Positions 20,584-21,404 of a stretch of 64,000 nucleotides of DNA are shown in pieces. Source of the DNA: Alistipes senegalensis (GTDB lineage: Bacteria; Pseudomonadota; Gammaproteobacteria; Burkholderiales; Burkholderiaceae_D); NCBI GenBank assembly GCA_023664945.1, contig JAMPER010000001.1:901795-965794 (forward strand), read 5' to 3'. A model generated the notes under the pieces. It was not told the DNA's origin. It did not search any database and worked only from the letters and a program-made list of their open reading frames with translations. The position numbers and the translations under genes are program-made. How positions within the stretch are numbered: position 1 is the first letter of the stretch; each line of letters starts with the position of its first letter.

Positions 20584-21216
20584 ATGAGAACAGAGGCAAC
20601 TGAAAAAAACATGATGGTTTATGGATATATCCGTGTCTCCAGTACTGATCAGCATGAAGACAGACAATGGTTAGCCATGCAAGCATTAAATATACCTGCA
20701 CCACATATATTCACAGATAAACAATCCGGCAAAGATTTTCATCGCCCGGCATGGCAGGCACTTCTAAACAGGCTTGCAGCCGGCGATCTGCTGTACATTA
20801 AAAGCATTGACCGGCTGGGAAGAAATTATGGCGAAATACAGAACCAGTGGCGTATCCTCACCAAAGAAAAAGGAGTGGATATTGCTGTGATTGATATGCC
20901 GCTCCTGGATACCCGAAAAGGAAAAGACCTGATGGGAACCTTCATAGCTGATCTGGCTTTACAAATTCTCTCCTTTGTTGCACACAATGAACGGGAATGC
21001 ATCCGGCAGCGCCAGGCGGAAGGGATTGCGGCAGCCAAAGCAAGGGGAACAAGATTCGGCCGCCCCGCCAAAAACACACCGCCATCCTTCGGAGATCTCA
21101 TCTGGCAGTGGGAAAGAAAAATACTCTCGACACAGGAAATTCTTACAACCTGCTGTATGAGCGAGGCAACATTCTATCGCAGGCTGAAAGAACACAGGAT
21201 GCTTAAAAATAAATAA
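20584..21216 (+). CDS. serine recombinase, Hin/Gin-like DNA invertase or resolvase
   Basis: Small serine recombinase, about 210 residues from the ATG at 20584, which has AAAGGAG ten bases upstream. The catalytic domain starts [10 protein letters not shown]; Ser19 aligns with Ser10 of Hin. [10 protein letters not shown] carries the catalytic Arg pair and ELTDSIDTSS of Hin is replaced by [15 protein letters not shown]. After the long helix E ([21 protein letters not shown]) a GRPA hinge leads into a helix-turn-helix ([21 protein letters not shown]). The stop codon is six bases before a 26-bp hix-like site, and a second such site lies 156 bp further on in inverted orientation, so the enzyme probably acts on these. 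No transposase is next to it. Confidence 0.93.
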
Positions 21217-21338
21217 ACCCTCTTATCAAAAAGTGTACTTTTTGAGGGAAAGAAATTTGATCCTACGAATAAGCCTCTTTTGTATTTTTGCGAAGCATAG
21301 CCATATTTTATGCCACAATTCGGCAATTTTTCGCGCAT
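21174..21338 (-). CDS. small ORF starting within the invertible segment (54 aa)
   Basis: On the minus strand AGGAG (21345-21349) stands six bases before an ATG, an ideal spacing. The reading frame continues through site 1 and ends antisense to the recombinase 3' end. If the segment flips, the same first 38 residues would continue rightward through site 2 and stop about 14 codons later, so the ORF would have two alternative C-termini. The predicted peptide ([20 protein letters not shown]...) is basic and unfamiliar. It might be a leader, a true small protein, or chance. Confidence 0.35.
21223..21248 (+). promoter_or_regulatory. hix-like recombination site 1
   Basis: A 26-bp site with half-site TTATCAAAAAGT, central dinucleotide GT and right half-site ACTTTTTGAGGG. 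The left half matches the right-hand half of site 2 exactly and is close to the hix half-site TTATCAAAAACC of Salmonella Hin. The right half departs from the dyad in its last three bases, much as one half of hixL does. It starts six bases after the recombinase stop codon. Confidence 0.8.
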
Positions 21339-21391
21339 AGCACACTCCTCTCAATAGCTACACGACAGGCTGGCAAGTTTATCAAAAAGTA
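21236..21391. mobile_element. putative invertible DNA segment
   Basis: The segment between the two crossover points is about 156 bp. The sites carry opposite central dinucleotides (GT and AC on the plus strand), so recombination between them should invert rather than delete the DNA. Inside lies a well-formed minus-strand translation start (ATG at 21338 with AGGAG six bases upstream) and no obvious protein domain. The segment lies 160 bp upstream of the LPS glycosyltransferase operon. It is short for a Hin-type reaction, so a resolvase-like regulatory site remains possible. Confidence 0.6.
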
Positions 21392-21404
21392 CACTTTTTG
21401 ATAA
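21379..21404 (-). promoter_or_regulatory. hix-like recombination site 2
   Basis: Perfect dyad of TTATCAAAAAGT and ACTTTTTGATAA around central AC; 23 bp are the exact inverse of site 1. Its two half-sites are identical, unlike site 1. Orientation is opposite to site 1 as judged by the central dinucleotide. Confidence 0.8.

Follow-up and report, generated by a model that had tools for sequence, protein, structure and literature searches.

The locus

The stretch of DNA studied here raises the question of what a small serine recombinase gene is doing when it ends directly before a run of LPS glycosyltransferase genes, with two inverted copies of a short palindrome lying in between. Considering its anatomy, the opposite orientation found in a sibling species, the conservation of the arrangement as a cassette, the covariation of the site centres, the phasing of the site spacings and the placement of promoters in relatives, all of which are lines of evidence drawn from sequence, we think it very probable that the locus is a self-contained promoter-inversion cassette positioned before the LPS genes. 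The features of the window (the whole 64,000-nucleotide stretch that was analysed, from genome G000) on which this reading depends are as follows.

20584..21216 (stop included), + strand: small serine recombinase of 210 aa, presumed invertase (Pfam Resolvase, E=7.8e-26)
21223..21248, no strand: site 1, half-site TTATCAAAAAGT, centre GT at 21235-21236
21237..21390, no strand: putative invertible segment of 154 bp between both centres, inverted in the sibling species genome G007
21379..21404, no strand: site 2, a perfect 12+2+12 palindrome, centre AC at 21391-21392
21550..23847, + strand: first downstream gene, a 765-aa glycosyltransferase family 9 protein, presumed target (Pfam Glyco_transf_9, 2e-54)
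23801..28148, + strand: co-oriented followers, namely Wzy_C/O-antigen ligase, GT8, GT9 and PfkB kinase

Each 26-bp site is built from two 12-bp half-sites around a 2-bp centre, with the palindrome complete in site 2 and the right arm of site 1 lacking its last three bases. The two share a 23-nt inverted repeat that is 100% complementary, and their centres lie 156 bp apart. A sequence-only reading of this DNA had placed a 26-bp site six bases beyond the end of the recombinase, the same 23 bp inverted 156 bp away with centres GT and AC, and LPS glycosyltransferase genes next, and we recover all of this: the ORF ends at 21216 and site 1 begins at 21223, the 23-nt repeat is perfect, and the genes that follow are co-oriented and of the families listed above. 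The core pattern TCAAAAAGTNNACTTTTTGA, allowing up to three mismatches, matched the window twice and both times exactly (shuffle mean 0.03, n=100), and across the 1.93-Mb genome it gave two exact places and one place with three mismatches. Since a reversed control pattern also gave three places per strand within three mismatches, matches at that level are meaningless, and no second site pair was found elsewhere in the 1.93-Mb genome by this core-pattern search. The recombinase itself is the one Resolvase-family match in the whole genome. Genomes of the genus are small (1.2-2.6 Mb), and an oxalyl-CoA decarboxylase reaches a score of 783 where the cut-off is 739, a threshold passed by one of 14 control genomes as well; the lineage is presumably Oxalobacter.

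The segment lies in the opposite orientation in a sibling species

Two of the 13 genomes of the genus, G000 and G007, have this locus, so that orientation is compared here through one genome per species, with the window's assembly showing one orientation. The flanks of the two are collinear (730/805 positions identical upstream and 941/1088 downstream). Between the sites they align well when one is inverted (117/137 identical, score 95); direct alignment gives 75/161 identical positions and a score of -16.5, which falls inside the range of 200 shuffles (mean -20.9, sd 5.0, max -2.5). A blastn comparison among 59 segments likewise has G000 and G007 sharing 134 bp in inverted orientation at 86.6%, and both 20-bp cores are identical in the two species except at their centres. 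Inverted repeats flanking a segment that occurs in both orientations are the mark of an inverton, and here they are seen between sibling species. These comparisons indicate that the segment has been inverted between the two species, in keeping with the inversion that had been read from the window alone; one way in which that reading might have failed, a single orientation in all related genomes, is not what G007 presents.

The mechanism that we propose would run as follows. A Sin-related small serine recombinase would bind two 26-bp palindromic sites lying around 15 helical turns apart behind its own gene, and would cut the strands at the central dinucleotide of each (GT for site 1, AC for site 2). 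As these centres match head to head only, the 154 bp between them would be rejoined flipped. A promoter near one end of the segment, facing outward, would then read into the downstream LPS glycosyltransferases in one orientation and back toward the recombinase in the other, and inversion would at the same time lengthen or shorten the hairpins at the sites, which are possible terminators. It is presumably the recombinase encoded at the locus that does the flipping, and the switch may well still be active in the window's species.

A two-site cassette behind related recombinase genes

The wider family was sampled through protein similarity alone: of 430 homologues the 80 best were taken, which together with G000 and G007 give 82 loci. 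A motif scan found the same two-site arrangement behind most of the 80 relatives' genes. A motif-free scan, which looks for a pair of palindromic sites that repeat each other in inverted orientation at a distance of 90-300 bp, found a pair behind the gene in 50/82 family loci and in front of it in 0/82. The same scan gave a pair in none of 28 distant recombinases (<44% identity; 24 with at least 420 nt downstream), in one of 56 family loci when a control stretch 1.5 kb further on was examined (L087), and in one of 535 shuffled stretches. By either method a pair is present in 60/82 family loci, and in 59 of the 70 that have at least 420 nt downstream; none was detected in the other 11 of these 70 (L044, L056, L063, L067, L069, L089, L101, L107, L109, L110 and L113). 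Variant half-sites in L037, L042 and L048, with spacings of 145-156 bp, were caught by the motif-free scan, and in L035 the site pair is present and the recombinase frame is broken. In one locus, L041 from a Desulfovibrio MAG, a series of three site-like sequences spans the end of the recombinase and the DNA behind it.

Mobile elements were also searched. A strict scan of eight phage and plasmid stretches (L168-L175) returned no pair, with two loose core-like stretches 137 bp apart in L169 being left out of the pair counts, and a viral scan aimed at a phage-borne copy whose cassette could be read yielded four relatives and no such copy; the sequence of L178 stops at the stop codon. Recombinases of the family also occur in six MAGs labelled archaeal (Bathycorpusculum, Nitrososphaerota; L038, L044, L053, L055, L084 and L096), and in the tree described below these form a subclade adjoining the window's protein. 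Ten neighbour proteins were available from four of these six loci, the informative ones being large serine recombinases (L038, L044) and MobA/MobL (L038). Given such mobile-element neighbours in L038 and L044, a binning error or a mobile element is possible, and an archaeal version of the cassette, which we considered, was not upheld.

The centres of the sites are particularly informative, as the site patterns used leave the centre dinucleotide free. The motif list comprises 57 pairs, whose centres are GT/AC in 41, AC/GT in eight and CT/AG in three, with AA/TT, AG/CT, TT/AA, AT/AT and AC/AC (L114) occurring once each. In every pair but that of L114 (56/57) the two centres are reverse complements of one another, with AT/AT occurring beside six asymmetric combinations. 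Strand exchange with inversion demands a 2-bp overlap of this kind, which would account for the pattern, and this covariation lends support to the earlier prediction that opposite centres favour inversion.

Helical phasing of the two sites

The spacings between paired sites gather near 126, 136, 146, 156 and 168 bp. In a hand-copied list of 56, of which 54 lie under 200 bp (L097 and L098 being left out of the test, and L100, which has an N gap, not listed), the vector length was 0.80 at 10.45 bp, and in the motif-free list (n=48, with L097 and L100 left out) R was 0.83 at 10.39 bp; in each case 0/20000 jittered sets reached the value, the jitter null being our own choice. Thinning to 44, 36 and 18 representatives (90, 80 and 75% identity) kept R at 0.81-0.82 at 10.45 bp, and the spacings in the window and in G007, 156 and 157 bp, both fit 15 turns. 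We take this phasing to mean that a very small loop brings the two sites together on one face. Since repression loops also depend on phasing, it is by itself no proof of recombination. The short spacing had earlier been called unusual for the Hin family, and the contrast stands, with a segment of around 154 bp here against around 1 kb in Hin (PMC3798978, in excerpt); within the present family, short spacing turns out to be a helically phased rule.

Promoters and hairpins

The consequences that inversion might have for expression depend upon the following candidate elements.

21266..21294, - strand: candidate promoter TTCGCA-17-TATTCG, 20 bp from the site 1 core and directed toward the recombinase (by eye and from the relatives' placement; a weak match)
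21326..21354, - strand: second promoter-like match TTGAGA-17-AAAAAT, same direction, around 80 bp from site 1 (consensus scan)
21218..21248, + strand: hairpin CCCTC...GAGGG at site 1 in the window's orientation (RNA fold -8.9 kcal/mol; 26/200 shuffles as good)
21372..21409, + strand: hairpin GGCAA...TTGCC at site 2 in the window's orientation, between the recombinase and the LPS genes (-16.6 kcal/mol; 0/200 shuffles as good)

Across the relatives, a sigma-70-type promoter was called in 43/54 segments (mean 9.7 in 40 shuffled sets), with no call in the remaining 11. In 37 of the 43, a distance of 17-21 bp separates the end of the -10 from the closest site core, compared with a mean of 0.5 and a maximum of 2 in shuffles. 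Nine of the called promoters point toward the downstream gene and 34 toward the recombinase; the downstream gene is co-oriented in 53/54 relatives and the upstream gene in 30/50. In the window, consensus scanning of the segment gave one match against a shuffle mean of 1.3, and the candidate at 21266..21294 is absent from the calls of these scans. Its counterpart in G007, TTCGCA-17-TATTTT, faces the glycosyltransferase gene, again by eye and as a weak match. The second promoter-like match corresponds to TTGACA-18-AAAAAT in G007, and neither version is clearly above shuffles or at the family's usual place.

The hairpins also differ between the states. In G007's orientation both site hairpins fold at -6.0 kcal/mol, and among the relatives the promoter-reversed state has the longer site 1 stem in 36/43 cases, an equal stem in one and a shorter stem in six (that of L046 in the promoter-reversed state, for example, folds at -26.6 kcal/mol). 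Given the direction of the candidate promoter and the stronger hairpins of the window relative to G007, we take the window's orientation as probably the OFF state.

These folds invite a different account of the switch, in which it would work mainly through a hairpin terminator, read-through from the recombinase side being stopped in the window's orientation and meeting weaker hairpins in the sibling's. The difference in fold energies between window and G007 and the longer stems of promoter-reversed relatives are both consistent with this, and the cwpV switch of C. difficile would provide a precedent (PMC2784873, in part). We nevertheless regard this account as unlikely, if deserving of attention, since the site 1 fold is matched by a good number of shuffles, no terminator was called within 21180-21600, and the relatives' promoter sits precisely at one end of the segment. 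It is this precise placement which makes promoter inversion the better general account.

Some smaller elements were noted in the same region. A stretch of 51 bp at 21276-21326 is identical in both species and contains GCATA-N9-TATGC, possibly a regulator site upstream of the candidate promoter. An inverted repeat, GGCATTG-N11-CAATGCC, lies at 21489-21513 between site 2 and the glycosyltransferase start and is kept in G007, with the fold of the region around it being unexceptional (42/200 shuffles as good). A small minus-strand ORF read by eye in the segment was dropped, since G007 has a one-base indel that disrupts the reading frame.

Is the proposed switch still working?

Assemblies of relatives offer some information on whether cassettes of this kind remain active. 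In 6/80 relatives the contig breaks off no more than 100 bp after the recombinase stop codon, and in one it opens no more than 100 bp ahead of the start; four contigs (L061, L092, L096 and L103) stop 0-4 bases beyond the core of site 1. In three of the genomes of these four (G060, G061 and G063) the other site lies on a second contig, which breaks off at the identical base beyond the centre. With both orientations in the reads, an assembly graph would fork in just this way, and we take these shared breaks as signs of mixed-orientation populations in the three relatives. In G062 the second site was not found, and in G065 and G066 the contigs end near the sites but at no shared base.

These signs bear upon the notion that a single old inversion separates the two sibling species and that the cassette no longer switches in the window's species. 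Such a history would sit comfortably with the one orientation seen in each genome, with the poor -10 hexamer in the window (TATTCG) and with the presence of the locus in so few genomes of the genus. The recombinase, however, is 94% identical to its G007 orthologue with a dN/dS of 0.09 (dN 0.025, dS 0.276), the 20-bp cores have stayed identical save for their centres in both species, and the three relatives just described hint at switching elsewhere in the family. We therefore consider loss of switching to be a rather improbable explanation of the locus.

Identity of the recombinase

By sequence, the enzyme is nearest to the Sin-type resolvases. Among 16 distinct solved chains the best match is 2r0q (E=8.4e-29), which carries the database name Tn552 DNA-invertase bin3 and which we take to be Sin, and the next five chains are all Sin- or bin3-named; the Sin-named chains 5c31 and 3pkz gave 5.5e-22 and 1.8e-20. 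Gamma-delta and Tn3 resolvase chains rank below these and above the chains named DNA-invertase (4m6f and 3uj3, 1e-14), which we assume to be Gin. In a tree of 115 sequences, 81 of them family members, in which the tool flags long branches, the family groups with plasmid and phage homologues and apart from a Gin homologue and the Tn3 resolvase, the split between family and other rows having a support of 91/96 and being present in 88% of bootstrap trees. The phage Gin homologue (L175) forms a separate clade in this tree, which was built without Hin itself. The recombinases of the window and G007 nest within a mostly Bacillota family, beside certain MAG sequences that are presumably of termite-gut origin, going by their naming. 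This position inside a mostly Bacillota family suggests horizontal transfer of the recombinase or of the cassette.

The enzyme had been called Hin-like, and in anatomy the description is apt, for we too see a small serine recombinase with 26-bp sites and a 2-bp centre, the half-site being near hix by the consensus quoted in the sequence-only reading. In sequence the likeness fails, with Sin nearest and the Gin homologue in another clade. At the positions that we take to align with Q151, R154 and L155 in the numbering of Hin, the recombinase has D, W and Q, and the Gin homologue has Q, R and L. In Hin these three residues are tied to Fis contact (PMC3798978, in excerpt). Together with the gap in E values between 2r0q and the DNA-invertase-named chains and the shortness of the segment, this makes a true Hin-family, Fis/enhancer-dependent invertase very hard to credit.

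Around 140 bp ahead of its start, the gene for an E. faecium plasmid resolvase (L173, 47% identical) has a core, TCAAAAAGTATACTTTTTGA, that is perhaps an ancestral type of res site. With nearly the same core upstream of this homologue, the site may predate the switch. That the sites in the window act as operators at which an autorepressor loops the DNA, or as a resolution site, and are no inversion substrates, could draw upon this res-like arrangement and upon the phasing that a repression loop would need as well, but we give it hardly any credence in the face of the siblings' opposite orientation, the promoters facing either direction among relatives and the covarying asymmetric centres.

Relation to known systems

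Mpi of Bacteroides is a serine recombinase that acts on short invertible promoters which are many and distant. The cassette resembles it in joining a serine recombinase to a short invertible promoter, and differs in the one local site pair of the window's genome; on the Mpi family profile (NCBIfam NF009949) the recombinase scores 39.2 bits, below the curated cut-off of 272. The Sin resolvase of S. aureus and related plasmid resolvases are represented by the closest solved chains. Sin acts at a res that comprises a crossover site and a regulatory site II, with HU also involved (PMC2764113, in part), and unlike this the cassette has two inverted crossover-type sites, mostly with asymmetric centres, which lie behind the gene, a pair in front being seen in none of the 82 family loci. 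Hin, Gin and Cin share with the proposed cassette the inversion of a promoter-bearing segment at 26-bp sites by a small serine recombinase (PMC3798978, in excerpt), and are set apart by the clade, the Fis-contact residues and the segment length discussed above.

The Bacteroidales IP-ARG elements are similar in having an invertible promoter and its target directly behind the invertase gene, and in their horizontal spread; they differ in that their promoter is of the Bacteroidales type, and their invertase tree is rooted on tyrosine integrases (PMC8748976, in part), so these are presumably enzymes of a different class from that in the window. The cwpV switch of Clostridioides difficile likewise has a short invertible segment (195 bp) before a surface-protein gene and a predicted hairpin that depends upon its state, but it uses the tyrosine recombinase RecV and its promoter lies outside the segment (PMC2784873, in part). 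In a 2025 survey of a defined gut community, the most significant pair linked an inverton group, 32 of whose 33 members were in Clostridia, to a tyrosine recombinase (PMC11892184, in part). Promoter inversion, an invertase gene beside its inverton and hairpin switching are thus already known, as the portions of PMC8748976 and PMC2784873 used here describe. Among the titles and abstract openings that searches of open-licence PMC papers brought up, none described a promoter-inversion cassette of Sin type or helical phasing in invertons, and a 2019 inverton survey may include some of these loci.

A more general proposal, to which we lend belief and doubt in equal measure, is that such cassettes are widespread, horizontally moving, stand-alone promoter switches. 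A lineage of Sin-type resolvases would have turned invertase through paired sites with complementary asymmetric centres, spaced by whole turns (mostly 12-18) and located behind its own gene. The in-phase, tiny loop may replace an enhancer and set inversion over deletion, and the flip would both move the promoter and remake the hairpin. The phasing makes it testable how a serine invertase without a known enhancer pairs sites around 150 bp apart and chooses inversion. More broadly, the findings point to a compact recombinase-plus-promoter module common to very different bacteria and standing before unrelated genes, some of them for surface proteins. Laboratory genetics could use the cassette as a small flip-flop that brings its own recombinase.

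Downstream genes

Control of the LPS genes by flipping is plausible from their position and from the cassette's relatives, and if true would give this presumed Oxalobacter lineage a phase-variable LPS, with a bearing on encounters with phage and the immune system. The first downstream proteins of 54 loci contain 78 Pfam families, and among the 25 listed none occurs in more than three members; those found in two or three targets include LRR_5, Listeria-Bacteroides repeats, SLH, dockerin, SPFH, zinc ribbons and Radical SAM. As L046, L049 and L060 are near-copies, some counts of three may represent one gene. With targets this varied, the cassette gives the impression of a general plug-in switch.

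Two of the genes downstream in the window deserve brief comment. The glycosyltransferase at 21550-23847 is one ORF here, and in G007 (C31) it appears as two separate matches, the second with three internal stops. Further along the + strand, a gene of the membrane protein/sulfatase type, which may encode a phosphoethanolamine transferase, is present as two overlapping frames (28174-29142 and 29019-29837) with the sulfatase domain only in the second, and is possibly frameshifted or phase-variable.
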